Positions 11,140 through 26,502 of a stretch of DNA of 64,000 nucleotides are shown one piece after another. The notes below the pieces were generated by a model that searched no databases, had not been told where the DNA came from, and worked only from the letters and a program-made list of their open reading frames with translations. Position numbers and translations under genes: made by a program. How positions within the stretch are numbered: position 1 is the stretch's first letter; each line of letters starts with the position of its first letter. Origin of the DNA: Prevotella sp. GTDB lineage: Bacteria; Bacteroidota; Bacteroidia; Bacteroidales; Bacteroidaceae. The stretch spans positions 1-64,000 of the forward strand of contig JAFTFX010000035.1 in the NCBI GenBank assembly GCA_017458225.1, read 5' to 3'.

Positions 11140-13464
11140 CTATTTCCTAAACACCTTCTTTCCATTCCAGATAATGACTTCCTGCCGCTTCGATGCCGAA
11201 ACAGGTCGTCCGGCCATATCAAAAGCCTGAATATCGGCATTGGGACGGTACACGATGCCATTGACGGCTGTTGTTCCGCGAACGATGTCCAGTTCAATCT
11301 CAGTACAGCCTTTTTCCAGAAAGAAAGAAACATCACCTCGATACACCCCACCGGTGAAGTTCACATATTTGGCATAGTACGTGCGCCCAGCTATAAGCTG
11401 TCCATTGTCAATCTTGCTGGTAAAGAGCGAGTCGCGATAGATGGTGATGTTAGGCTTCAGTCCGTTCACCTCGGTGAACGTCACTGTTGTCAGCAGGTCG
11501 CTGCCCAGATAGAAACTCGTTTCCGTGGGCTGGTTATAGCCCATCTGCTGGTTCAGTACCGACATCTCGTAGTGATGGTCCTGCAACAGACAAGGAAAAC
11601 GATAGTCGGTAGGATACCAAGTAGAGAAAATCTTCAGACAAGTCTCAGCAGAGTCTACATAGATAATTTCCTCGCGCCAGTCGCCAAAGAGGTCGGCGTA
11701 GAGGCAGGGATTCTCTTTCGTGCCGTTGATGGCCTTTGCATTGAAGTAGTTGGCACGCAGGGCACGTCGCTCCTTGCCATCGCTGGCATTGTTGGTACAC
11801 ACCTTGTTGCCGTCCAGCAACTGACGGTTGATGCTGCCACTGAACCATACGGCCATGTTGTTGGCAGCAGCCTTGATGGGGTTGCCGTCATCGGTTTTAA
11901 TCTCTCGTCCGTCACTGGTCATGATGTTGCCGCCATACCACCACATCTCACAACCAGGATATTCAGGCATGATGTCAGCTACAGAACAGCGTCCCACATC
12001 CTCAGGCGACTTGAAGCACCATATCGTTTCGCCCGTTTGGGCATCGCGCAGGGCAGCCCCATATTCACCAGTCTCGTAGCAGGCCCATATCTCCATGCCA
12101 TCACGATCAGGCAGGAAGTCGCCCATGTGCAGGGCATCACCATGCCCATAGCCCAAGAAGTCCTTGTCATAGTTCCTTCCACTAATCACCGTCTCCACAC
12201 CGTTTTTAGCACCCGACACATAGAGCGGTGTGCCATCGTGATCAAGAGTCATCGAACCGTAACACATCTCGTCGAGCCCATCGCCGTCAACATCGCCCAC
12301 AAAGAGTGAGTGATAGCCTTGCGCCCCGTAGTTCTGACAGCCTTCGTCATCGCTGTCGAAGTGCCAACGGCGCGACAACTGGCCATTCTGATAATCCCAT
12401 GCCTCAATGACGCTCTTGGCATAGACACCACGTCCCACTAAGATAGAAGTGATATCCTCGTCGCAGCGAATGATGCCCACACGGATGGAAGCAGCGCGTT
12501 TCCAGTAGCTGTCGCCCCAGGCCTCACTGCTCTTTCCTGCAGGAATGAACTCAGCCCGTGCCAGCTCCTTGCCAGTCATGCCGTCCATCACACAGATAAA
12601 TTCTGCCATGCCATGCGCATGATTGGTGGAATAGGTGCGATAATCGGTGCGCCCGTCGTGGTTCTCGTCGCCTATCGTCTGACCATCGCCGAAGACGGCA
12701 CCCTCAGAGAGGCGCGTCACAAACTCACAGCGCCCGTCGCCATCAAAGTCATAGACAACAAAGTTGCTGCTGTTGCCCGTCTCGATGTTGGGACCCGAAC
12801 AGACGCGCCACAAGAAAGTTCCATCCAGTTTGTAGGCCTCCCAGATAACAGTATGAGTCACCTGACGGCGATCTTCATCGCTCAGTCCATCATTTACCAA
12901 CAGTTTGTCTTCGGTGCGCGCACCGCGTTTCACGACAATCTCTGGCACACCGTCGCCATCCAGGTCACCATAGCTACAGTCGTTCACCTTATAGATAAAT
13001 CCTGAAGGTGTTCCCTCCCACTTCTGCAGCGGCATGCTCACGTATGGCACGCCAGCCTGCAGCTGTTCCTTTTTGACCGTATAGCTAGCCAGTACCTCGC
13101 TCTGTCCCTTGTAGCACAGTTCGTAGGTAATATCTTTCGAGAAATCCTTATAGCTATCCTGAAAGCAGGTTGAGGCAATGATGCCATTGGCACCGCTCAC
13201 CTTGGTGCGCTGTCCGCCAGCAGGTTGGCGATACAGGTCGAAGACTGTTTCGTAGCTGTCTTCCGGCATCATGCGCCACGACACCAGAATCTTGCCCAGT
13301 GCAGGCTGATACTCACTATCTTTCTGCGGATAGATACTTTCGCTTACATTATTGATACTTGCCCACAAACAACGATTATTACGATAGGCAGTGGACTCGT
13401 CGGCCATCACCGCCTGCAAGCTGGCCATCATACAGACCATTATCAAGCAACACAGTTTTTTCAT
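11140..13464 (-). CDS. secreted PL11 rhamnogalacturonan lyase
   Basis: The start is placed at ATG 13464; the frame also extends to a TTG at 13470. A signal peptide (MKKLCCLIMVCMMASLQAVMA) is followed by the PL11 eight-bladed propeller with calcium-binding repeats such as DLDGDGVPEIVVK, DFDGDGRCEFVTR and DVDGDGLDEM, then a beta-sandwich and a C-terminal surface tag-like end (FDMAGRPV...IIWNGKKVFRK). Length (774 residues) is somewhat above simple PL11 enzymes because of the C-terminal domains. PL11 enzymes cut the rhamnogalacturonan I backbone by beta-elimination. It is the last gene of a minus-strand operon with GH2 (16012), the small peptide (16222) and the secreted protein (17950). Its start lies inside the frameshifted tail of the GH2 frame. 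Confidence 0.88.
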   Translation of the reverse strand: MKKLCCLIMVCMMASLQAVMADESTAYRNNRCLWASINNVSESIYPQKDSEYQPALGKILVSWRMMPEDSYETVFDLYRQPAGGQRTKVSGANGIIASTCFQDSYKDFSKDITYELCYKGQSEVLASYTVKKEQLQAGVPYVSMPLQKWEGTPSGFIYKVNDCSYGDLDGDGVPEIVVKRGARTEDKLLVNDGLSDEDRRQVTHTVIWEAYKLDGTFLWRVCSGPNIETGNSSNFVVYDFDGDGRCEFVTRLSEGAVFGDGQTIGDENHDGRTDYRTYSTNHAHGMAEFICVMDGMTGKELARAEFIPAGKSSEAWGDSYWKRAASIRVGIIRCDEDITSILVGRGVYAKSVIEAWDYQNGQLSRRWHFDSDDEGCQNYGAQGYHSLFVGDVDGDGLDEMCYGSMTLDHDGTPLYVSGAKNGVETVISGRNYDKDFLGYGHGDALHMGDFLPDRDGMEIWACYETGEYGAALRDAQTGETIWCFKSPEDVGRCSVADIMPEYPGCEMWWYGGNIMTSDGREIKTDDGNPIKAAANNMAVWFSGSINRQLLDGNKVCTNNASDGKERRALRANYFNAKAINGTKENPCLYADLFGDWREEIIYVDSAETCLKIFSTWYPTDYRFPCLLQDHHYEMSVLNQQMGYNQPTETSFYLGSDLLTTVTFTEVNGLKPNITIYRDSLFTSKIDNGQLIAGRTYYAKYVNFTGGVYRGDVSFFLEKGCTEIELDIVRGTTAVNGIVYRPNADIQAFDMAGRPVSASKRQEVIIWNGKKVFRK

Positions 13465-16012
13465 ATTCAAAAGATTTCATTTCATTTATAAGTTCTTCAA
13501 GAATTCTATCTCTACAATCTTCAGCGAGGTGCCTGCCGATGCCTCCTTCAGGAGCATCGCAGGGGGCTGCATAGATATCAACGGGATAGCTCATGGAGCG
13601 GAAGTTCTTCAGCTTCAGGCACACCTCGTCAATGGTTGTCGGCTCGGCCAAGGTATAGGTGATCCAAGCCTTGTCCAGCTTGCCCTCACTCTCCCAGATG
13701 GTGTTCTCGTAGGTGTCGAAGCTCAGCGTAGGGTCACCTGTACCAGCTACGGCATCGATGATAGCCACCTCACGGCGCGTCGGGATAAACGACGGTGTGA
13801 GCGGTGTTTCTCCCTTGTTAAGTCGTGGCATCAGACCGTCAGAGGGCTTGTAGGCAGTCAGTCCGCCCACCACACTGACAGGCTGCGTCTGCAGTTCGAT
13901 GGTGGCCTTTGGCAGTCCTTTGGCCTGAGCCGTCACCGTGATCTTGCCTGCTTTGGCAAGCGAGCGCAGCATCACTCTGTTGACACCACACTCCACAGGC
14001 AGCGTATCCTGCAACACATGGTTCAGATGGGCGTAGGTCTTGGCATCAATACCCAGAGGATTGTTGCTGCCAATCTTCTCACCCTTCAGCACAGGGGCAG
14101 CAGGGTTGGTTGCCAGTGAGAAAGGCTTCGTCTTGGCCACTCCACCGCGATATTCGGCCGGACCTTTCACGTTCCATTTGATGAGACGGTTGTCCAACGG
14201 ACAGCGACGGCCCTGCCCGTCGACCACCTCCACCTGAACAAGTGCCACGTCGGCACCGTCAGCCTTCCAGCCCACCACATACACTTCAGGCACCACGAAC
14301 GGCTCTGCATAGTTCCAGTGCCCCACGATATAGGTCTGCGACTTCAGGTCGTCCACCCACCCATTCCACAATACAATCTTCGTACCACCCGAATTGACCT
14401 TCGTTCCTGTGCCGGGCCGTTCCAGCCAGTATTCATGCCAGCGGCGCACCAGTTCCACTACGAAGCGGTCGTTATTGTGGTTGTAGGCCGAGGCTTTGGC
14501 TCCACGGAAGGTTGGTCCGTCGCCCTCTGCATGATACGGATAGGACCACGAGTTCCAGTACCAGCGCAGAGCCTCGTCGCGACAATACTCCATCATCCAT
14601 ACAGGCTTTGTGTCGCTCTTGTTCACATAAAGCATCTCGCCGCCATATTCAGCCTCCGGCTCGTCAAGCATCTCACGGCTGCCGATGGCACGGCCACCGT
14701 AGGGGTCATACTGGTTGCGCAACTGTTTCATCTCGCGCATGTGCTGGGCCGTGATGCGGTGGTTGCCACACTCGTAGAAAATGACAGAGGGCGAGTTTCG
14801 CATATAGATGATGGCATCGCGCATCAGTTCCTTGCGCTGCGTCCACCAGCGGCCTGTGGCATCTTTCTCGGAGTCGCCGGCAGGCATGGCCTGCAGTAAG
14901 CCCACGCGGTCGCACGACTCCACATCCTGTTTCCACGGACAAGTGTGCATCCAGCGCACCAGATTGCCGCCGCTCTGCACAAACAGGTCGTTGCTATAGT
15001 CGCTCAGCCAGGCTGGCACACACTGGCCCACGCCAGGCCACTCATTGGTGGTGCGCTGGGCATAGCCGTGTACCATCAGCACACGGTCGTTCAGGTAGAT
15101 CATGCCATCCTTGAACTCCGTTTTGCGGAAACCGGTTGTAGTTTCTACTTCATCCTGTCCCACCACCGTTTTCACCTTATATAGATAACCATAGCCCCAC
15201 GACCAGAAGTGCAGACCAGTAACGCGCTTCTCTGCCCTCAGCATGGCCATGCCATGCGCAGGAATGGTGACAGGCTGTCCCTCAAAGCGAGCCAGCTCCC
15301 GTCCGTCCATTTCCTCAAGAACCACCTGACAGCTACGAGTGACAGGCTGGTCGCTGTCGTTCATCACCTGACTCTCGACATGAATTGTGGCTGCGTGACC
15401 CGGAATGTCGTAGTGCGTACCATAGATATAGGTGCCCGTAGTGCCCAGATTCGACATCAGGGGCAGTGTCTGATAGACCTGGTCGGTGACGTGCAGCCAC
15501 ACGTTCTTGTTCAGTCCGCCATAGCTCACGTTGAACGAACGGCTCTGCCACTGGAAGGTGCTGCCGGTAGCTTCTTCCCGATAGTCGAAATCGTTATCCG
15601 TGCGCACTTCTATTTTGTTGACACCCTCCTTGACAAAAGGTGTCAGATCGAAGCCGAAGGCCATCACTCCGTTCTCAGAGATGCCCACACGCTGGCCGTT
15701 TACGAACACCTCGGCAGCCTGACGGGCACCCTCGAACTCAATGAAGATCTTCTTTGAGGAGAGAGGGGCAAGATGGTCAAGCGAGAACTCCTTGCGATAC
15801 CAGCGCACGCCAGTCGATGTTTCGAACGTGCTGACACCGAAAGCCTCGTCCTCATTCCAGGCATGGGGCAAAGTCACCGTTTGCTTCTGCTGGTCTATTC
15901 GCCAGCCGCTATTGAAATTATAGGTCTCACGAGCCTCGGCACTGACTGTTGCCAGCAGTGCCAAGGCTACTATCATGATTGGTCTTTTCATGTTCATGGG
16001 GTTATCTGTCAA
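13379..16012 (-). CDS. secreted GH2 glycosidase with disrupted C-terminus
   Basis: An 877-codon frame with a signal peptide (MKRPIMIVALALLATVSAEA, from M8 at 15991). Domains: sugar-binding jelly roll, Ig-like, TIM barrel, and a C-terminal region that should be a discoidin-like domain. The likely nucleophile is E475 (VWMMEYCRDE). The usual acid/base pair NE is GNH (H418), with E414 in FYECGN nearby. After PVDIYAA the frame runs 92 bases into the PL11 gene. Another frame instead gives ...AGTSLKIVEIEFLKNL and a stop at 13486-13488, 21 bases before the PL11 ATG. That is what a normal GH2 end and normal operon spacing would look like. A deletion with frameshift near 13560 is inferred. Activity may persist, because the catalytic barrel is intact. 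Confidence 0.78.
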   Translation of the reverse strand: MTDNPMNMKRPIMIVALALLATVSAEARETYNFNSGWRIDQQKQTVTLPHAWNEDEAFGVSTFETSTGVRWYRKEFSLDHLAPLSSKKIFIEFEGARQAAEVFVNGQRVGISENGVMAFGFDLTPFVKEGVNKIEVRTDNDFDYREEATGSTFQWQSRSFNVSYGGLNKNVWLHVTDQVYQTLPLMSNLGTTGTYIYGTHYDIPGHAATIHVESQVMNDSDQPVTRSCQVVLEEMDGRELARFEGQPVTIPAHGMAMLRAEKRVTGLHFWSWGYGYLYKVKTVVGQDEVETTTGFRKTEFKDGMIYLNDRVLMVHGYAQRTTNEWPGVGQCVPAWLSDYSNDLFVQSGGNLVRWMHTCPWKQDVESCDRVGLLQAMPAGDSEKDATGRWWTQRKELMRDAIIYMRNSPSVIFYECGNHRITAQHMREMKQLRNQYDPYGGRAIGSREMLDEPEAEYGGEMLYVNKSDTKPVWMMEYCRDEALRWYWNSWSYPYHAEGDGPTFRGAKASAYNHNNDRFVVELVRRWHEYWLERPGTGTKVNSGGTKIVLWNGWVDDLKSQTYIVGHWNYAEPFVVPEVYVVGWKADGADVALVQVEVVDGQGRRCPLDNRLIKWNVKGPAEYRGGVAKTKPFSLATNPAAPVLKGEKIGSNNPLGIDAKTYAHLNHVLQDTLPVECGVNRVMLRSLAKAGKITVTAQAKGLPKATIELQTQPVSVVGGLTAYKPSDGLMPRLNKGETPLTPSFIPTRREVAIIDAVAGTGDPTLSFDTYENTIWESEGKLDKAWITYTLAEPTTIDEVCLKLKNFRSMSYPVDIYAAPCDAPEGGIGRHLAEDCRDRILEELINEMKSFEYEKTVLLDNGLYDGQLAGGDGRRVHCLS

Positions 16013-16018
16013 AAGGTG

Positions 16019-16222
16019 TTAGAATCCGTTTTCGTATTCTTCGTCTTCCTCCACTTCTTCGTCATCCCAAACTTTTCGTGATCGGCGACGGGAGAGCGAC
16101 TCATTGCCGCCCGCCGTTTCGTTGTCAATCAACTGTGTGGGTTCGCCGGAAGCGGCCATCAGACTTTCTCTTCCACTCATCATTAAACAAACGAGAGTAG
16201 GGCTGATATATTCCTTTTTCAT
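16019..16222 (-). CDS. small acidic-tailed peptide with strong Shine-Dalgarno (family member 1)
   Basis: A 67-residue peptide. The start at 16222 is set by AAGGAGG about 8 bases upstream, an unusually strong ribosome site for this phylum; the frame extends 6 codons further to 16240 without such a site. Layout: KxYIxP start, hydrophobic middle ending LMAASG, a polar stretch, LSRRRSRKVWDDEE, then an acidic tail. The same architecture is seen at 23626-23796. It lies between the secreted protein (16241) and GH2 (16012) in one operon. There is no cysteine-rich or catalytic motif, and no known function that I can name. It could be an exported or ribosomally made modified peptide, but nothing here proves it. 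Confidence 0.75.
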   Translation of the reverse strand: MKKEYISPTLVCLMMSGRESLMAASGEPTQLIDNETAGGNESLSRRRSRKVWDDEEVEEDEEYENGF

Positions 16223-16240: not shown

Positions 16241-17950
16241 TTACTTAATGATTACCTTTTTGCCATTCTTGATGTAGATGCCACCCTTAGGCTGAGCCAC
16301 ACGCAGTCTTTGACCATTCAAGTTGTAGACGATATTATCGTTTCTCATTTCCTCATTTCTGTTAAGACGCGAAGCGTCGCTAATGCCTGTCGTAGTACCC
16401 TCTGCATCAATGCCTATGAACAGACGGGCCTCGCTGCCGCCATTACCTTCCTTGGGAGCTATGGTAATGCTGGCAATATTCACGCTGCGGTTCCCGTGGA
16501 AAGCATACGTGCCGGCGGCCTTGATCTCGAACACACAGTCCTGCTGGGCGGTGCTCTCCTTGTCACCGCCAATCATTTCCACGTTTGTCTCATCGTCGCA
16601 CACCATGTAGCCGGCATAGCTGCCATTGCTGGTGCGGGCGTTGATGGTGACGGTGTGGTTGGGTTTCAGGTCGGGGATGATGACCGAGGTCAGGCCGTTG
16701 CCGAAGTAAATACGGCCCGCTGCGTTGCGGTTGTCGATGCCAAGACGGTCGCCAGCCGACGTAAAGAGCAGTCCCTCAGTCTCGGTAATGACGTTGCCGT
16801 TGGCGGTAAGGGCTGCATTGTCAAGAGCCGCCACGTTGTGGTAGCGATAGCGCTCGCCGTTTGCTGCGCCCTGTTTCCAAATGTCGGGGGTATCCTTGGT
16901 GCGCTCTGCCTCCAGATCGCTGACGCTGGCATCGCTCCATGTAGTGAAACTCCACGAGCGGTTGTCGGCACTCTCGTCCACGATACTCAGGTAGGCCTTG
17001 CCTGCGGTAATGGTGCCTTCGCCACTCGACTTGTAGAAGCCTACGCCATGTTCCTTGTTGGCAAAGATATAGTTCACCATGCCTCCTTCAGTTGCTGGCA
17101 CGGTCATGTCGGCAGTCACGGACACCATCAGGTTGTCGCCCTCGTAGGTCGAGGCTGTCTCTGTGCGCTCCAGCGTATAGTCGCCGGCGACATCGGCCTT
17201 TAGAATGACACCCACGCCTGCTGGAATCACATTATACTCAGCAAATACCACGATGCCGTCGCTGACCGACGATACACCATAGGCCTTCAGCCCTGTGGGC
17301 AAACTCAGCGTCACGCCGCTGTTGTTGCCAAACGTGGCGTAGGTGGTCTCGCCTATAGTGACATCGACCGATGTCTGTGGGCGCTCCACCACAATCTTGA
17401 TGACGTTGATGCGAGTGTTACCCGAGCGACCGAAGTAGAGCACGCTCTGGTCGGCGGTCAGCGTATAGCTGAACTCCTGTGGGTCGCCAGCCTCCTCGTG
17501 GCCATCGGTCACGGTCTTCTCTGTAGCGGTACCGCCAGTGGTGAAAAGCTCGGTGTTCGCAGCATCCTTAATCACGATGTTGGCATACTTAGAGCCTCCC
17601 GTGAAATCAGCCGTCGACATATTGGTGAACGGCTGAAAGGTCACCACATCACCCACCTTGAAGTCGCCCTCCAGCTTGATGGCATGGTTGAAGTCACCAG
17701 CCGAATAGCCGATGCTGCTGGTGAAGGTGATTACGTTGACTGTAGTTTTGTTCGAGTTGTACTTCTGAGTCACCTGGGCATTGTCCTTCGAGGCATCCAG
17801 CCAGAAGGCATTGCCGATGGAAGTCCACGTACCGCCGTTGATGGTGCCTTTGTCCCATGATGCGATGGTGGTTGATTGCGCTTTCACGCCTGTTGCTGCT
17901 GCCAGCATGGCCAGCAGTGCGATTGCTTTTGTCAGTAATTGTTTTTTCAT
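16241..17950 (-). CDS. secreted protein with shared YATF domain and C-terminal tag
   Basis: A 569-residue protein: signal peptide (about 1-24, ending GVKAQ), a beta-rich N-terminal region, then a domain starting ETTYATFGNNSGVTLSLP (about residues 205-325). That domain has the pattern GVILKA, NYIFA, GVGFYK, GKAYLSI and is also present in the gene at 23816-25057. A second beta-rich region follows, then the surface tag YNLNGQRL...GIYIKNGKKVIIK. No catalytic domain is recognised. It is the first gene of the operon secreted protein / small peptide / GH2 / PL11, so a role in binding or processing rhamnogalacturonan at the cell surface is plausible but unproven. Confidence 0.75.
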   Translation of the reverse strand: MKKQLLTKAIALLAMLAAATGVKAQSTTIASWDKGTINGGTWTSIGNAFWLDASKDNAQVTQKYNSNKTTVNVITFTSSIGYSAGDFNHAIKLEGDFKVGDVVTFQPFTNMSTADFTGGSKYANIVIKDAANTELFTTGGTATEKTVTDGHEEAGDPQEFSYTLTADQSVLYFGRSGNTRINVIKIVVERPQTSVDVTIGETTYATFGNNSGVTLSLPTGLKAYGVSSVSDGIVVFAEYNVIPAGVGVILKADVAGDYTLERTETASTYEGDNLMVSVTADMTVPATEGGMVNYIFANKEHGVGFYKSSGEGTITAGKAYLSIVDESADNRSWSFTTWSDASVSDLEAERTKDTPDIWKQGAANGERYRYHNVAALDNAALTANGNVITETEGLLFTSAGDRLGIDNRNAAGRIYFGNGLTSVIIPDLKPNHTVTINARTSNGSYAGYMVCDDETNVEMIGGDKESTAQQDCVFEIKAAGTYAFHGNRSVNIASITIAPKEGNGGSEARLFIGIDAEGTTTGISDASRLNRNEEMRNDNIVYNLNGQRLRVAQPKGGIYIKNGKKVIIK

Positions 17951-18780: not shown

Positions 18781-21562
18781 ATGATACGACTATTACTATT
18801 ATCACTATACCTATTGCTTGCATTCTCGCTTCAGGCTAAGGATGAGATTGTGAGTTTCAAACTGTCGAGCCAGAACGGACTGCCCGACAACAGTGTGCGC
18901 TACATCCAACAGGCCCCCACGGGAGAATTGCTCCTCATGATACACTATGCCGCCTATAGCTTCGACGGCTATACTTACCGGCGCTTGCCACAGGAGGAGT
19001 TTGAACGGCTGAAAGCCGCCTCGCTGAAAGACCATTCGCTCAGCGTGGGGCACAACCGCGACAATATGGGCAACCATGTGGTGATGGAAGGCAATGCTAT
19101 TGTCTATACCGACCACGCGACGGGCGAGCAGATACGCTTGCAAGTGCTGGACCCTCAATGGGGAAAACTGACGCAGAACCTGAAATACCGTGTGGTGACC
19201 GACCATGAGGGACGTATCTGGGTGTCGATCAATGGCTTTGGCCTCTATGTCTACAACCGCCGGACGGAACAACTGCGCCACATCAGCGAAGATGATGGAA
19301 GCGGACTGATAGACACCAACTATCTGGTCTACATGATGCTCGACCGCGATGACCACGTCTGGGTGGCTGGTGAGCACTATGGACTCTTCTGCCTTCAGAC
19401 TGTCAACCAGGGCTATGAAGTGGTGCTTCCGTCGGGGCAGACGGACAAGGAGCGAACTGAGGAAATCCGCATGATGAGCCGTCTCAGCAACGGGCGCATC
19501 ATTCTGGCCAACAATGCCGGTGTGGTGATGACGGCTGACAGCCTGCTGGAAAACATAGTGCCGCTCTCTACCGACGGCGAGAACTATATCTCGGCCTGTC
19601 TCGACGGGGCGGGACGCTTGTGGTTAGGTTCACGAGTGAATGGTGTCAACGTGGATGGCCGCCACTATAGTCAGGGACGCATTGACTGTCTGTTGCTCGA
19701 CAGCAAGGGGCGCATGTGGGCCTGCGGACTGAAACGTGCTGTCTCCATGATGACGATTGACCATGAAGGCCGCTTCCATGAGCGGGGCTTCTTCGAAGAT
19801 TCTGTCGGTTTGCAGGCTCGCATGATGATTGAAGACCATCGTGGCGACATTTGGCTGGCCTCGGAGAAAGGACTGTTTGTGTTTAATCCAGACGAACTGC
19901 TTGCCGACTCGAAGGCCTATAAGAAGATTCTCGATGAGCCCATCCGCTGTCTCTGTCAGGATAGCCGTGGGGTGTTATGGGCTGGAACGCTGGCCGGTGG
20001 TGTGCTTCATGGAGACAATTCCGCCTGGCATCCCACTACTTTCACCCGTCTGGACCGCAGTGACGGACTGGTGGGCGATGCCGTACAGATGATAGCCGAG
20101 GACGGCAGCGCAACGTAGACCGCATGCTGCGGCTCATCAACCAACTGCTGGAATTCCGCCGCATGCAGAACAACAAGCTGTCGCTCGCACTCGAAGAGAC
20201 CGACATCGTCAACTTTGTGTACAACCTGTGTCAGAGCTTTCACGACACTGCCGACCAGAAACACATTGCCCTGACATTCGTTCCAGCCATGAAGAACTAC
20301 ACGATGTTCATTGACCGTGGATTCATTGACAAAGCCGTCTACAACCTGCTTTCAAACGCTTTCAAATACACGCCGAAAGGAGGCAGTGTGTGACGGTAAG
20401 GGTGAGGGAGACCGGCACCAACATGAGCATCATTGTCGAAGACACAGGCGTGGGAGTGCCCGAGAACATGCGCGAGAAAATATTCGACCGCTTCCAGCGA
20501 GGGCAATTAGGGCGCGACAGTCTGGGCATCGGTCTGGACCTGACGGCCGAACTGATACGAACCCATCACGGCAGCATCCGTTGTGATGCAAATCCCAATG
20601 GCGGCAGCATCTTCACCATCGAGTTGCCCACCGACAAGAATATCTATGAGGAGAAAGACTTCCTGAGCAGCGAGGCACCCCAACAGGCAGAGCAGGATGA
20701 CGACCGCAAGGGCTTCACCGAGTTGGTACGCGAGGCCACACCAGAGCCCATGAACGACCACTGCATCCTCATTGTGGAGGACGATGCCGACATTGCAGCC
20801 TTCCTGAAACAGGAACTGAGCCGCTACTTCCAGACAGAGACTGCCGCCGACGGAGAAGAAGCCCTCACCTCGCTCCACTCTTCTCCCTCCACTTTCAGTC
20901 TGGTCATCACCGATGCCATGATGCCTCGCATGAACGGCTTCGAACTGATCAGGCGGCTGCGGCGCGACGACCCCACGCGCCATCTGCCCGTCATCATGCT
21001 CACAGCCCTTGATGCACAGGAACAGCAACTGAAAGGTATGGAGGCCGGTGCCGATGCCTATATCACCAAACCTTTCTCAGTGCCCTTACTGCTGCTGTAT
21101 TGCCGCAACCTGATTCAGCGCAGCTACAACCTGAGAAAAGAAACCGAGAGGCAACAGGCAGACAACAATCCTATTGATGCCGACTCACAAAAGAAGAAAG
21201 CCATGGCCGTCGCACAGGTCATCATGGAAGAACGCGACCAGAAACTGTTGGCCCAGTTATCGGTATGGGTAGAATCGCACTTGGCCGCCCCCGACCTCAG
21301 CGTCGACAAGTTTGCCGAAGACATGGGCTACGGCCGCACTTCGTTCTATATCAAACTGAAGGCCCTGACGGGAATGACACCTAACGAGTACATCAAGGAG
21401 CGCCGGCTGCAAAAGGCCTACGAAATGCTGAAGGACGAACGTGTGACAGTGGCCGAGGTGGCCTATCAGGTGGGCATGGGCACACCACAGTATCTCTCAA
21501 CCACCTTCAAGAAACGCTTTGGAATCACGCCTACGCAGTATCAGAAAGGAAAAGTTTCTTAA
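18781..21562 (+). pseudogene. hybrid two-component regulator, broken by deletion and dinucleotide slip
   Basis: From 18781: signal peptide, then periplasmic Reg_prop propeller repeats (DHEGRIWVSINGFGLYVYN and similar) to about 20105. There it jumps out of frame into the second half of the HisKA domain (RNVDRMLRLINQLLEFRRM). The YYY domain, transmembrane segment and phospho-acceptor His are gone, about 400 residues against usual HTCS length. At 20386-20392 (GTGTGTG) an extra TG ends the frame after KYTPKGGSV; removing one TG restores TVRVRETG. The rest is intact: HATPase (VEDTGVGVP), receiver (VITDAMMPRMNG) and AraC helix-turn-helix (to 21562). Such regulators sense glycan fragments and activate adjacent loci. 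This one cannot make a working sensor, though a C-terminal receiver-AraC fragment might be translated. Confidence 0.88.
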
Positions 21563-21662
21563 TAGCCGTTGTCAGCTTCGTTCCTCAAAGCCAAGGAAGG
21601 AACTGAAGTATGGATTTGTCCGATTTTTCCCAATATTGCTTGGCTGTTTTAGCAAAAAGTAT

Positions 21663-21670
21663 TACATTTG
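21663..21670 (+). promoter_or_regulatory. predicted -7 promoter element
   Basis: TACATTTG followed by C, 32 bases before the ATG at 21702, supporting that start over earlier in-frame codons. Confidence 0.55.
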
Positions 21671-21701
21671 CAGTGTCACAACTATTCAAGACGCAAAAAA
21701 G

Positions 21702-23273
21702 ATGGGAATTTATATTGACAGAGGCAACTTAGACTTCACAGAAGCCAGAAACAGTGAATACGTTGACAAGTCAGGACTGATCAGTGTGGTAAACAAAACG
21801 CTCTTCACCCGACAGAAATTCAGCTGCGTGACACGTTGTCGCCGTTTCGGCAAGTCGATGGCCGCACAGATGCTGTGCGCCTATTACGACCGCACGTGCA
21901 ACTCTCGCCAACTCTTCGAAGACTTGGAGATTGCGAAAGACGACACCTTCGAGCGACACCTGAACAAGTATCCTGTCATCTACCTTGATATGACGGATTT
22001 CATCACCCGATACCGAGGCGATGAAGATATTGTCAGGCATATTGACCAAGAGGTGCGCGCGGAAATACAACGTGCCTATCCAGACATCCCCACCGAAGAG
22101 AACGATGACCTGATGGCACTGCTTCAACGCATCGTGCTGACAACGCAACAGCCGTTTTTCTTCATTGTCGACGAGTGGGATGCCATCTGCCGCGAGTTTC
22201 CTGCAGGCTCGAAGGGCATGGACAGCTATGTCAACTGGTTGCGCCGCATGTTTAAGAGTACAAGCGGCAATACAGTTTTTGCAGGAGTTTATATGACGGG
22301 CATACTGCCCATCAAGAAGTACAAGACCGAATCGGCCTTAAACAATTTCCAAGAGTATTCGATGGTGTCGCCACGCCAGATGGCAGGATTCTTCGGGTTC
22401 ACCAAGGAGGAAGTGCGTATGCTGGCAGAAAAGTATGGAATGGACTTCAGCGAACTGGAGAAATGGTATGACGGCTATCAGATTGGAGGGCTGACCTCCA
22501 TTTTCAACCCCAACTCGGTGATGCAGGCCATTTATAGCGACTATTGCGAGAGCTATTGGGGGAAAACGGGTGCTACGGATGCCGTAGCCCACTACATTAG
22601 AATGAATTACGAAGGGTTGAAAGACGACATCATCAGCATGCTGGCTGGTGCCCGCTGCAAAGTAGACCCTAAAGGATTCAAGAACGACCTGTCGCTGATA
22701 CTGAATCGCGATGACGTGCTGACCGTGCTCATTCACCTTGGCTATCTATCGTACGACCGGACAAAATCGGAATGCTATATCCCCAACCTTGAGGTTGCCG
22801 GCGAAATGGAGGAAGCCATCAAGACGAATAATTGGAAAAATGTTGTTGACGCTGTCAGACAGTCGGAAGAGCTGTTGCAAGCAACCCTTGACGGCGATGC
22901 CGAGGCCGTGGCCCGGGGTGTGGAGGCTGCCCACGACGACAATACCAGCATTCTCAGTTATAACAACGAGAACTCATTGGCCTGCGTGCTCTCTATAGCC
23001 TATTATTATGCACGCAACAACTACGTGATGCACCGTGAACTGGCATCAGGAAAAGGCTTTGCCGACATTGTGCTCATCCCTCGCAAAAACGTTGATTCGC
23101 CTGCAATCGTCCTTGAGCTGAAAGTAAACAAGGATGCTGACGCAGCCATCGATCAGATACACCGCAAACAATATCCCGCCAAGGTTGCCGAATATGCTGA
23201 CCGTCTCATCCTCGTCGGTATCAACTACGACCGAGAAACGAAGCAACACACCTGTAGAATAGAAAAGGTGTAG
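21702..23273 (+). CDS. AAA-ATPase-like / PD-(D/E)XK nuclease-like protein
   Basis: A 523-residue protein. The start is taken at MGIYIDRGNLDF (21702), behind a -7 element and typical for the family; the frame is open back to 21519. The N-terminal ATPase-like domain has CRRFGKSMAAQM (Walker A-like) and FFFIVDEWDAI (Walker B-like). The C-terminal PD-(D/E)XK-like domain reads GFADIVLIP then IVLELKVNKD, giving D...ELK. The family (AAA-ATPase_like plus PDDEXK_9, often called DUF1703) is multicopy in Prevotella and Bacteroides and has no settled function; links to mobile elements or defence have been suggested. Repeat copy 2 begins right after the stop. Confidence 0.85.
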   Translation: MGIYIDRGNLDFTEARNSEYVDKSGLISVVNKTLFTRQKFSCVTRCRRFGKSMAAQMLCAYYDRTCNSRQLFEDLEIAKDDTFERHLNKYPVIYLDMTDFITRYRGDEDIVRHIDQEVRAEIQRAYPDIPTEENDDLMALLQRIVLTTQQPFFFIVDEWDAICREFPAGSKGMDSYVNWLRRMFKSTSGNTVFAGVYMTGILPIKKYKTESALNNFQEYSMVSPRQMAGFFGFTKEEVRMLAEKYGMDFSELEKWYDGYQIGGLTSIFNPNSVMQAIYSDYCESYWGKTGATDAVAHYIRMNYEGLKDDIISMLAGARCKVDPKGFKNDLSLILNRDDVLTVLIHLGYLSYDRTKSECYIPNLEVAGEMEEAIKTNNWKNVVDAVRQSEELLQATLDGDAEAVARGVEAAHDDNTSILSYNNENSLACVLSIAYYYARNNYVMHRELASGKGFADIVLIPRKNVDSPAIVLELKVNKDADAAIDQIHRKQYPAKVAEYADRLILVGINYDRETKQHTCRIEKV

Positions 23274-23290
23274 TCACGACAACAGCACGC

Positions 23291-23527
23291 GCTGCAATCT
23301 GCGTCAATTTATACTGCAACGGATAGTCCGTTTCGCTGCAGTTAATATTGAATCTCGCTGCAATCCAAGTTTAATCACACCGGAATTTGACGTTAATCAG
23401 AGCAGAAAATGACGTTAATTAGAGCAGAGAATGACGCAAACGAGAGTAGAGAATGATGCAAACGGGAGCAGAGAATGATGCAAACGTTTAGTGACAGCAG
23501 TGTATGCAAATTTTGCAAAAAGTTTTT
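23291..23527. repeat. 22-bp-unit intergenic element, copy 2 (left end missing)
   Basis: It is nearly identical to copy 1 from CAATCTGCGTCA (23295) onward, but the left inverted repeat is absent and similarity begins about 20 bases after the upstream stop codon. Units run in 22-bp register from 23291, 23313, 23335 and so on to 23467. The right end GTGACAGCAGTGTATGCA is at 23491-23508, followed by AAATTTTGCAAAAAG as in copy 1. It contains one more 22-bp unit than copy 1 between the shared flanks (distance 156 versus 133 bases from GCTGCAGTTAAT to the right repeat). It accounts for most of the gene-free stretch 23274-23625. Confidence 0.85.
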
Positions 23528-23550
23528 TCGGTATTGCTATTATATATTTT

Positions 23551-23584
23551 GAGGCAGCAGAGCGCCACATGCGCCTGCTGCCTC
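23551..23584 (-). terminator. stem-loop after small-peptide gene
   Basis: GAGGCAGCAG (23551-23560) pairs with CTGCTGCCTC (23575-23584), a perfect 10-bp stem, about 40 bases downstream of the peptide stop on the minus strand. It is followed by an A/T-rich stretch without a clear T run. It probably ends the operon that starts at 25057. Confidence 0.5.
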
Positions 23585-23625
23585 AACAACTAATAACTAA
23601 CTAATATTATTGAAAAAAACTACTG

Positions 23626-23796
23626 CTATTCGTCATCGTCGTCCCAGAAAGAGCCGCCGCGAGAAAGTACGGCATCATCAGTACCCAGTGCAGTATCTGA
23701 GACTGTAACAGTTTCATCACCCGATGATGCTATCATGTGGCATGTCTCAATCATGGTAAACGTGGTCTGGGGCTGAATATAATGTTTCTTGTCCAT
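23626..23796 (-). CDS. small acidic-tailed peptide with strong Shine-Dalgarno (family member 2)
   Basis: A 56-residue peptide, not obvious from length alone. Support comes from AAGGAGGG seven bases before the ATG and from matching the peptide at 16019-16222. It starts MDKKHYIQPQTT, has a hydrophobic middle ending MIASSG, then a Thr/Asp-rich stretch, then LSRGGSFWDDDDE at the end. Shared features with member 1 are YIxP near the start, a (M/L)xAxSG-like centre, and LSR...W-DD-acid at the C-terminus. It follows 19 bases after the stop of the secreted protein 23816-25057, as member 1 follows its own secreted protein. Function unknown. Confidence 0.75.
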   Translation of the reverse strand: MDKKHYIQPQTTFTMIETCHMIASSGDETVTVSDTALGTDDAVLSRGGSFWDDDDE

Positions 23797-23815
23797 GGTT
23801 ATCCCTCCTTTTTGC

Positions 23816-25057
23816 TTATTTGATAATTAGTTTCTTGCCATTCACTATGTACAGTCCGTTTGCTGGCCTTGCTACACGCTGTCCATTCAGGTTGTATACA
23901 TTTCCGTTCTCGCAACTATTGTTTGTCAGCGTGTTGATGTGCGCAGTTTCGTCATCAAAAGCCATTGTTATGCCTTCACGTGCCGGACTGACTTCATCCG
24001 TTACGATGCTTAGATAAGCCTTGCCGCCCAGTCCTGTCTTTTGTGCGTCTACTTTGTAAAAGCCGACAACTCCGTCCTTATAGGCCAACAGATAGTTTGT
24101 GGTGGTCTTTCCATCGGCAGTTTCAGGAACCTTTACCTTTGTAGCATCATCCTTGATGTTCTTCAGCAGGTTATCGTTATACTTTGTGGTACTTGTTCCT
24201 GTGGCATAAGTATAGTTGCCTGGAGTAGCTTTAAGGAGTACGCCAACATTGGCGGGAACCTGTCCGTCAGTGATTTCCGTGAAAGTAACGTTGCCATCCT
24301 CATAAGCGGAAGCCCAGTAGACTTTTACCCCTGTTCCAGAGAAGCTAACTGCCGACGTGTTACTGAACGTGGCATAGCCAGTGCTGCCAATGTGAATACC
24401 GTTGGTGCCAACGGTCTTGATGGTCACCTTACGGAGGTACAAATCTGATGTTTCAGTCCAGGTGAAATCAAATGTCCCATCGCTCATCATCGTGTAAGGT
24501 GTTCCACTGACTAAAGCATTTCCTGCTGTTTTAGTCTTGCCTGTGGAAACTTTTGCTCCATTGGCTGTGTCGTATGAAACATTGGTAGATGTGATGTATA
24601 GTCCTCCTTCCGTCGACTCTGCTGTAACTGCACTGTTATGCCAGACAGTTACGACATCGCCAGCTTTCAGATTCAGAATAGAGATGGTCAGATTCTTATT
24701 TTTCAAGTGCAGACCAGCAGTCATCAATTCATCAGTTACAGTCCCGCTGGTAGCATACCCTTCAAACTTCGTCCAACCGTATGGATTAGTGTCTGCACTC
24801 TTCTCAAAGGCGAATCGCCCATTGAGGCTGTGCAATGTAGATCCGTCTTTATCAAAAAAGTTCTCTAGCAGGTAAACGGTCTTTCCTGTTGACGATGTGA
24901 CCAAGGATTCGAGGTTGAGAGTTTGATTGACAGCGGACTTCTTCGTCCAAGAGCCGAAGTCGTAGGTCTCGGTTGTTCCCTGTGCTTTCACCTCCCCCAC
25001 AGGCATGAGCATCATGGTGCAAAGCGCCATCATTGATAGTAGTTTTGTTTTCATCAT
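23816..25057 (-). CDS. secreted protein with shared YATF domain and C-terminal tag
   Basis: A 413-residue protein: signal peptide (about 1-25, ending GEVKAQ), a beta-rich N-terminal region (about 30-215), then the domain STGYATFSNTSAVSF...GVLLKA...NYLLA...GVVGFYK...GKAYLSIV (about 220-345). That domain is homologous in pattern to the gene at 16241-17950. It ends in the tag YNLNGQRVARPANGLYIVNG. No enzyme domain is recognised. It forms a two-gene unit with the small peptide downstream. A signal peptide plus tag suggests a secreted or surface location. Confidence 0.75.
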   Translation of the reverse strand: MMKTKLLSMMALCTMMLMPVGEVKAQGTTETYDFGSWTKKSAVNQTLNLESLVTSSTGKTVYLLENFFDKDGSTLHSLNGRFAFEKSADTNPYGWTKFEGYATSGTVTDELMTAGLHLKNKNLTISILNLKAGDVVTVWHNSAVTAESTEGGLYITSTNVSYDTANGAKVSTGKTKTAGNALVSGTPYTMMSDGTFDFTWTETSDLYLRKVTIKTVGTNGIHIGSTGYATFSNTSAVSFSGTGVKVYWASAYEDGNVTFTEITDGQVPANVGVLLKATPGNYTYATGTSTTKYNDNLLKNIKDDATKVKVPETADGKTTTNYLLAYKDGVVGFYKVDAQKTGLGGKAYLSIVTDEVSPAREGITMAFDDETAHINTLTNNSCENGNVYNLNGQRVARPANGLYIVNGKKLIIK

Positions 25058-25293: not shown

Positions 25294-26502
25294 TTACACC
25301 AGTGTCTCTTTTTTTAAGAAGTCCCTGAGCGGGATGTGAATGATACCCTCATACTTGCTGGAATCCATAAAGGGTGTCATAGAGACTACATATTTCGGAT
25401 AGTTGTCGTTGATCTTCTGCAAATTGCCGAACTCACGTTGAAAGGTGGACTCCTCACTGATGAGGTAGGATGCCTGTACATAAATGGTATTGTCGCCCTT
25501 TGTCGCCACAAAGTCAATCTCTGTTGCGTACATCTGCCCAACGGTGACCTTATATCCCTGCCGTACAAGATGCTGATAGACTAGATTTTCCACTATCTTC
25601 TCAATGTCGTTGGCACGTCGGCCTCCCACGACGAAATTGCGCAGACCGACATCGCCAAAGTAGTATTTGTCGTTGTTCTCCAGAAGTTTCTTCCCATGCA
25701 GATTATAGCGGATGACGTTGTGCGTGAGGAATGCCTCTACGGTGGCCTTCAGGTATTTAAGAATAAGGTTCTTGGACACTTCATTCCTGTTGGAAGTCAT
25801 ATAATTCTGGATATTGGTGGCAGACAGCGGCTTACCAATATTGTCGCCTATATATCTGATCAGGTTTTCCAAAAAAGGAACGTTCCTCACTTTCTTCCGG
25901 CGGACAATATCCTTCACGAGAATGGTATTATAGACACCCTGAAGATACTGACGGATGACCTCTGGATCGTCCAACCCCATCGGACGAAGGCCAGGAAGAC
26001 CACCGTAGTTAATATACTTTTGCAAGGCATCGTCGTTGTCGTCCAGATTGTGGAATACGAGAAACTCCCCATAGCTGAGACCCTGCACGAAGATTTCCAT
26101 ATATCTGCCGGAAAGCATCGTTGCCAAGTCACTGGAGAGCGTGTCAGAATTACTGCCGGTTATGATGATGTCGATATCAGGACTATCGTAGTAATTTCTG
26201 AGCCCCCGTTCGAATTCCTCTATTTCCTGTACCTCATCAATTAGGATATACGTATGCTTACCCGGCTTCCTGCGTTGATCAACATATGCTACCAGATCCT
26301 TATAATTCTGAATGAAGTCGAAGTCCGTTTTCTCCTTGTCTATATAGATGACACTAGCATCGTCCTGCTGCTTCCTTTGAACGATCTCTCTCATCACATA
26401 ACTTTTGCCGACACGCCGCTGGCCGGTCAGGACAATCAGAATGCCTTTTCCAAGCAGTTTCTCTACTTTCGAATAATAATGAGGTCTTGCTATCAGTTCC
26501 AT
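25294..26502 (-). CDS. AAA_14/DUF4143 ATP-binding protein
   Basis: A 402-residue protein. The N-terminal AAA domain has the P-loop LTGQRRVGKSY (about residues 25-35) and Walker B ILIDEVQEIEEF; sensor-like ITGSNS follows. The C-terminal DUF4143 domain (about 200-360) ends with ATEIDFVATKGDNTIYVQASY, a PD-(D/E)XK-like core. This family is common and multicopy in Bacteroidetes, with no settled role. It is a single gene with its own -7 element at 26534-26541. Confidence 0.85.
   Translation of the reverse strand: MELIARPHYYSKVEKLLGKGILIVLTGQRRVGKSYVMREIVQRKQQDDASVIYIDKEKTDFDFIQNYKDLVAYVDQRRKPGKHTYILIDEVQEIEEFERGLRNYYDSPDIDIIITGSNSDTLSSDLATMLSGRYMEIFVQGLSYGEFLVFHNLDDNDDALQKYINYGGLPGLRPMGLDDPEVIRQYLQGVYNTILVKDIVRRKKVRNVPFLENLIRYIGDNIGKPLSATNIQNYMTSNRNEVSKNLILKYLKATVEAFLTHNVIRYNLHGKKLLENNDKYYFGDVGLRNFVVGGRRANDIEKIVENLVYQHLVRQGYKVTVGQMYATEIDFVATKGDNTIYVQASYLISEESTFQREFGNLQKINDNYPKYVVSMTPFMDSSKYEGIIHIPLRDFLKKETLV

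Follow-up and report, generated by a model that had tools for sequence, protein, structure and literature searches.

On the minus strand of a Prevotella sp. contig (JAFTFX010000035.1) lies a small gene that appears to encode one of roughly 26 precursor peptides of this Prevotella-type genome. We consider it probable that its 56-amino-acid product gives rise to a linear RiPP-like peptide, probably phosphorylated, and that some 26 such precursors, dispersed over the genome, are matured in trans and act at the cell surface. This reading builds on a peptide family, its pairing with neighbouring genes, its conserved motif, a gene cassette, and the co-occurrence of these elements. The gene lies in the first 64,000 nucleotides of the contig, which is the stretch of DNA analysed here and is referred to as the window.

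As the original prediction had claimed, a 56-codon frame is present at 23626..23796 on the minus strand, with an ATG at 23796-23794, a TAG stop at 23628-23626 and the ribosome-binding site AAGGAGGG at 23803..23810; its translation makes it a member of the peptide profile described below. The leader-like N-terminus (23722..23796), delineated from motif statistics and by analogy with LppA as presented in the main text of PMC13381572, contains Tyr6 (23779-23781) and Pro9 (23770-23772), the two YxxP leader residues, and extends to the conserved Ser25 (23722-23724), the predicted phosphoacceptor. By the same analogy, leader cleavage would be expected close to Ser25. The C-terminal SRGGSFWDDDDE motif, defined from the sequence and by paralogue comparison, occupies positions 23629..23664. 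All these features are on the minus strand.

The peptide gene had also been said to follow a secreted YATF-domain protein directly, and this holds: the stop of a 413-amino-acid partner (23816..25057, minus strand) with a signal-peptide-like start (judged by eye), a YATF domain and a T9SS-like C-terminal tail is 19 nt from the peptide start at 23796. On the 3′ side of the peptide gene, a strong terminator-like hairpin without a clear U run is found at 23549..23586 (minus strand); the fold of 23535-23595 has an energy of −32.6 kcal/mol (z −5.7), and the hairpin is absent from the list returned by a terminator consensus scan. Past the hairpin, at 23380-23490, there are imperfect repeats that by eye resemble GTTTGCATCATTCTCTGCTC. 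The unit of peptide and partner is flanked by an AAA-ATPase_like/PDDEXK_9 gene (21519-23273, plus strand) on one side and an AAA_14/DUF4143 gene (25294-26502, minus strand) on the other.

The window houses a second such pair, a 67-amino-acid peptide of the same layout (16019..16222, minus strand; an open reading frame and profile member) and its 569-amino-acid YATF/tail partner (16241..17950, minus strand). The start, centre and end of the two peptides, which had been described as the same, are similar but not identical, the 67-amino-acid peptide having YISP, AASG and LSRRRSRKVWDDEE; in the own-genome search the two align with 32% identity (E 0.013). A GH2-type glycosidase reading frame with a TTG start (13379-16012, minus strand) begins 6 nt past the peptide at 16019, and this unit may therefore be a three-gene run. 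Among 31 non-overlapping window reading frames of at least 150 amino acids, only these two partners are followed by a strict-motif peptide.

We have searched the genome (2.24 Mb, 75% complete) with a profile built from 13 peptides and with a profile of the 46-residue C-terminal tail of the upstream proteins. The peptide profile retrieved 24 family members, all with an E-value of 0.006 or better, and the tail profile gave 84 matches, some of them two per protein. Every one of the 24 peptides is preceded on its strand by a tail match, from which it is separated by 16-106 nt (match to match); the predicted recurrence of the pair is thereby borne out. Two additional, more divergent peptides were found behind seemingly unpaired tails, which brings the total to about 26; since they were located by inspecting tails, they are no independent evidence for pairing. 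The YATF/WxTxxPF domain is present in 25 of 26 paired partners versus 5 of 30 unpaired tail proteins (p = 6e-10), where 30 of 58 unpaired tails were checked and both search seeds derive from paired partners; the counts are 18/26 and 1/30 when the YATF seed is used by itself. The domain thus tracks pairing, and the peptide goes with a domain architecture and not with the tail alone.

Pairing was also observed in other species. A query with seven tails gave 468 loci from titled genomes, of which the best 80, mostly from Prevotella-labelled MAGs, were analysed; many of the relatives are metagenome assemblies. Among these best 80, and omitting four loci near a contig end, a strict-motif peptide stands behind 43 of 76 tail genes versus 2 of 117 other reading frames of at least 150 amino acids in the same loci (p = 1e-19), and both exceptions themselves end in a tail. 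The co-occurrence of the two genes, which the original prediction had proposed to check against chance across genomes, is therefore far above it. A loose pattern found a peptide in 58 of the 80 loci, of which 56 were kept after two (L148 and L151) were judged by eye to be chance matches; the YATF/WxTxxPF domain is present in 52 of the 56 loci with a peptide and in 6 of the 24 without. The peptide frame of Prevotella conceptionensis that follows the tail at position 2605 of L186 departs from its counterpart in Hoylesella loescheii (L159) after about 10 residues and is possibly a decayed copy.

The partner is usually a YATF protein, as predicted, but not always. Among 42 peptide loci of other Bacteroidales genomes, the peptide has a tail gene upstream in 22 and is instead immediately upstream of a predicted lipoprotein gene in 14, and six show neither arrangement; these counts were corrected by eye (L087, L207, L208, L211 and L213) from a script's 22 tail, 11 lipoprotein, one both and eight neither. 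What these arrangements have in common is an exported protein, not the T9SS alone. A link of the lipoprotein-type partners to fimbrillins was considered and dropped, as one of 13 matches Mfa_like_1 in Pfam (L196); the other 12 gave no Pfam family or weak matches below the cut-off. Upstream of lipoprotein-linked peptides, a KGRAEGR stretch is seen near the C-terminus of a protein in L207, L212, L215 and L196 (7493-7852).

The peptides share a layout in which a YxxP leader is followed, 19-20 residues after the Tyr, by a Ser and then by a variable acidic part; the mean column identity of the alignment is 27%. All but one of the 26 own peptides have the YxxP leader. A Ser at Y+19/20 is found in 23 of 25 own peptides and in 50 of 55 relatives, as compared to 0-8 of 25 and 1-13 of 55 at non-overlapping position pairs; the relatives in this count, but not the own peptides, were picked by a YxxP-type pattern. 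A W-acid motif at the C-terminus is present in 24 of 26 own paralogues versus 30 of 55 peptides of other species. For five close peptide pairs, dN/dS is about 0.25-0.38, two of the pairs resting on very few changes, which suggests that the frames are under purifying selection; values below 0.4 in all five also disfavour a feature that acts as RNA only. Extension of the partner by readthrough or frameshifting was ruled out, since the distance from the partner's stop to the start of the peptide takes all three values modulo 3 (23, 17 and 15 of 55). The excess of Shine-Dalgarno sites is weak (24/79 versus 1/19, p = 0.018; 7/24 own peptides counted by eye and 17/55 by script). Neither window peptide has a match at E ≤ 1 in Pfam or NCBIfam. 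Among 25 members scanned, the matches were isolated and confined to one member each, the best (E 8.5e-4) being to an SPT16 PH-like domain.

Candidate maturation genes emerged from a relative without a SprA/PorU match (G013), where the peptide gene (L195) lies in an operon-like run with genes for PqqD-like, NTP_transf_5, kinase-like, polysaccharide-export, Peptidase_S24 and ABC proteins. Because of this run, we searched for PqqD across genomes. Several of the 12 PqqD regions inspected carry a cassette of kinase, S24/S26-like peptidase and PqqD, and in the Prevotella genome under study the three genes are likewise adjacent (L228, at G000:C12). Its PqqD-type RRE (L228:8068-8337) matches PF05402 with 57 bits, and its HprK-like kinase (L228:6706-7584) matches TIGR04352 weakly (E 1.3e-4); the kinase Walker A motif SGxGKST is invariant in 10 of 10 sequences. 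The peptidase matches PF00717 (E 0.0022) and TIGR02227 (E 0.0015) below both cut-offs, and its relatives match TIGR02228 at 1.1e-5 and 6.7e-8. One Ser and one His are invariant in 9/9 peptidases, at a spacing of 38 residues (39 in LppS); no invariant Asp was found at the spacing of the third catalytic residue of LppS.

An NTP transferase (PF14907) is present in the loci of relatives (L195, L231, L250 and L251). An exporter relative, unlinked, is encoded at C16 of the genome (608 bits). In L195, L196, L229, L231 and L251, the distance between a precursor and a cassette gene is at most about 6 kb; the own cassette is not linked to the window, and in most genomes the majority of precursors have no cassette nearby. 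The claim of a two-component unit is right in that the pair recurs far above chance, but the unit is not self-contained, the putative RRE, kinase and peptidase genes being elsewhere in the genome. In four genomes of three genera (L246, L247, L248 and L249), an MsbA-like exporter relative adjoins ruvA, followed by sprA. The order exporter, ruvA, sprA is a common local one, in which the exporter and SprA are separated by ruvA, and we have left this neighbourhood out of the evidence.

Across 61 genomes, which are related, so that the Fisher values overstate independence, the kinase (E ≤ 1e-10) is present in 37 of 38 peptide-positive versus 9 of 23 negative genomes (p = 4e-7); the one positive genome without any match is G044, and among the 37 the match of G054 is only partial. 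PqqD (E ≤ 1e-3) is found in 38/38 versus 16/23 (p = 6e-4), an association weaker than that of SprA (p = 8e-6), and the exporter (E ≤ 1e-60) in 34/38 versus 10/23 (p = 2e-4). With thresholds set after the scores were known, PqqD at 40 bits or more is present in 38/38 versus 11/23 (p = 8e-7), and the exporter at 450 bits or more in 33/38 versus 6/23, five of the 38 peptide-positive genomes being without it; with the kinase counted at 200 bits or more, likewise a threshold set afterwards, the peptide is absent from 3 of 4 T9SS-positive genomes that lack the kinase and present in 4 of 7 T9SS-negative genomes that have it. In an order-wide set of 198 genomes, the kinase is present in all four other peptide-positive genomes versus 24 of the 193 remaining ones (p = 3e-4). 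One of the four matches, that of G136, is weak (58 bits); the counts become 3/4 and 8/193 (p = 5e-4) when 140 bits or more are required.

The peptide also tracks the T9SS, being present in 32 of 38 SprA-positive versus 6 of 23 SprA-negative genomes (p = 8e-6). As in bacteria with T9SS cargo of the type A sorting domain class, the own genome encodes SprA (SprA_N at G000:C18, E 3.4e-210) together with a C25 protease of PorU size. The partner tail of about 46 amino acids, which we infer to be a T9SS sorting signal, presumably resembles the last strands of a type A sorting domain (TIGR04183). When tails were compared with TIGR04183 and the Pfam sorting domains, no model recognised them, the best being an E-value of 0.1 to TIGR04183 for one of 13 tails; a profile of the YATF domain with the tail matches the C-terminal regions of the solved proteins 4kca and 7jvi. 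The genome G010 has 16 peptides and no SprA match; since it does contain a C25 protease the size of PorU, its assembly may lack SprA. The T9SS alone as the determinant of peptide presence is disfavoured, since the kinase is the better predictor of the peptide (p = 4e-7 versus 8e-6) and discordant genomes exist; PqqD outdoes SprA with the cut at 40 bits but not at E ≤ 1e-3.

Several other readings of the gene pair have to be weighed. The peptide might stay in the cytosol, unmodified, as a chaperone or escort that is made next to the nascent tail and serves the C-terminal module of T9SS cargo, with the PqqD/kinase cassette unrelated to it. The constant position of the own-genome peptides behind a tail gene, the absence of an apparent signal peptide (by eye) and the correlation with SprA agree with such a role, but it is rendered unlikely by the discordant T9SS and kinase genomes described above, by the 14 of 42 loci (counted by eye) where the partner is a predicted lipoprotein and not T9SS cargo, and by the YxxP and Ser pattern, for which it does not account. 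One can also imagine that the two genes are adjacent simply because they were inherited as a duplicated pair, with no functional coupling between them, since linked genes duplicate together and some pairs, such as L017/L018, are near-identical duplicates. This we regard as quite improbable: the peptides differ strongly (27% mean column identity), the partner changes between tail protein and lipoprotein, the peptide accompanies YATF-type partners and not just any tail protein (both seeds being from paired partners), and purifying selection seems to act on the frames.

A leader with a variable core in many paralogues and the small residue that often precedes the conserved Ser would suit an exported but unmodified peptide, bacteriocin-like or a signal, whose leader is cut by a double-glycine (C39) exporter; PMC10352776 contains a report of double-glycine leaders and C39 exporters for Bacteroidales RiPPs. 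The alignment consensus is without GG, however, and diversified bacteriocin cores would not be expected to pair 1:1 with surface proteins or to end in a motif common to most own paralogues, which leaves this reading very improbable. A lasso peptide precursor, to which the YxxP leader and the relation of PqqD to lasso B1 proteins could point, was rejected as highly implausible, since the lasso protease B2 (PF13471) has no match in the own genome (75% complete) and is over the cut-off in 2 of 61 genomes, including one of the 38 peptide-positive ones. At G005:C1:287251-289795 and G032:C3:863193-863803, PqqD and a PF13471 protease are no more than about 2 kb apart, and these regions are probably true lasso clusters of relatives.

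In the reading that we prefer, that of a linear RiPP-like peptide matured in trans, the PqqD-type RRE would bind the N-terminal YxxP leader, and the HprK-like kinase would phosphorylate the conserved Ser at Y+19/20. The signal-peptidase-like (S24/S26) protease would cut the leader off near this Ser, and the MsbA-like ABC transporter would export the acidic core. Each precursor would be expressed, probably by co-transcription, together with one exported surface protein, which carries the YATF domain and T9SS-like tail here and is a predicted lipoprotein in some other lineages. The mature peptide would most likely work at the cell surface with or on its partner. Since the W-acid motif is common to 24 of 26 own paralogues and most partners share the YATF domain and tail, the data suggest that the core meets this shared module, or a common component, and not the variable part of the partner.

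A more far-reaching proposal, which we put forward tentatively and consider possible but rather doubtful, is that Bacteroidales cells carry a surface repertoire of phosphorylated RiPP-like peptides. Each of the roughly 26 precursors would be wired to its own T9SS cargo protein (a surface lipoprotein in other lineages), and the mature peptide would be built onto it or bound by it outside the cell, the phospho-Ser, or a group added to it by the NTP transferase, serving as a handle for attachment. If true, a RiPP would serve as a structural component of surface proteins and not as a diffusible product. The genetic tie of each own precursor to one exported protein makes the role of the peptide directly testable. 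Under the preferred reading, the dozens of dispersed precursors in one genome are likely to be missed by cluster-based mining, and the system would account for a family of small genes, common in Prevotella, that carries no annotation.

The pair had been called undescribed. This stands insofar as the peptide has no Pfam or NCBIfam family, but the system resembles the linear polyphosphorylated peptides (LPP) described from Bacillota by Popov et al. 2026 (PMC13381572). According to the main text of that paper, LPP systems contain a discrete RRE, an HprK-like kinase, a SipW-like leader protease, an NTP transferase and an MsbA-like exporter; the precursors have the pattern YxxPxVLxHQxIxFETxxS with a variable C-terminus, and several phosphates are placed on core Ser3. 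According to its discussion, LPP and paeninodins are confined to Bacillota and the role of the peptides is unknown; no word beginning with "bacteroid" occurs in the main text. In the CC-licensed PMC literature, no account of such a system in Bacteroidota was found, and term searches of the Bacteroidales RiPP mining study PMC10352776, of RRE-Finder (PMC7470986), and of PMC12710340 and PMC7533575 returned no passage describing one.

Less close parallels are offered by two other systems. Paeninodin-type phosphorylated lasso peptides likewise involve an RRE, an HprK-like kinase and an NTP transferase, with a related leader motif (WxxP there, YxxP here), but the own genome is without the B2 protease. 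The HPr-rel-A system (TIGR04352/TIGR04353) is matched weakly by the kinase and PqqD, far below the curated cut-offs.

With LPP, the Prevotella system shares a discrete RRE, an HprK-like kinase and a signal-peptidase-like protease candidate, an NTP transferase and an MsbA-like exporter beside the cassette in relatives, peptides with a YxxP leader, a conserved Ser and a variable C-terminus, and the lack of a lasso B2 protease. N35, Y63 and D73 are invariant in 9/9 Bacteroidales PqqD proteins and align with N33, Y60 and D70 of LppB (with an offset of 18 between the LppB chain and the numbering of the paper, deduced from matching letters), which, as presented in PMC13381572, hold the YxxP leader. 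The differences are the host, Bacteroidales instead of Bacillota, the approximately 26 dispersed precursors apparently served in trans, the surface protein gene that adjoins each precursor, and a Tyr-to-Ser spacing of mostly 19-20 instead of 18. In addition, the HQ and FET positions of the LPP leader block VLxHQxIxFET are not conserved in our alignment, and the Bacteroidales RRE is not specially close to LppB, its profile scoring 31 bits with TfuB1, 21 with PbaB1, 19 with TbiB1 and 17 with LppB. If the preferred reading is true, RiPP chemistry of the LPP type extends to Bacteroidota; given the missing HQ and FET positions and an RRE nearer to that of lasso TfuB1, we refer to the system as LPP-like and not as an LPP.
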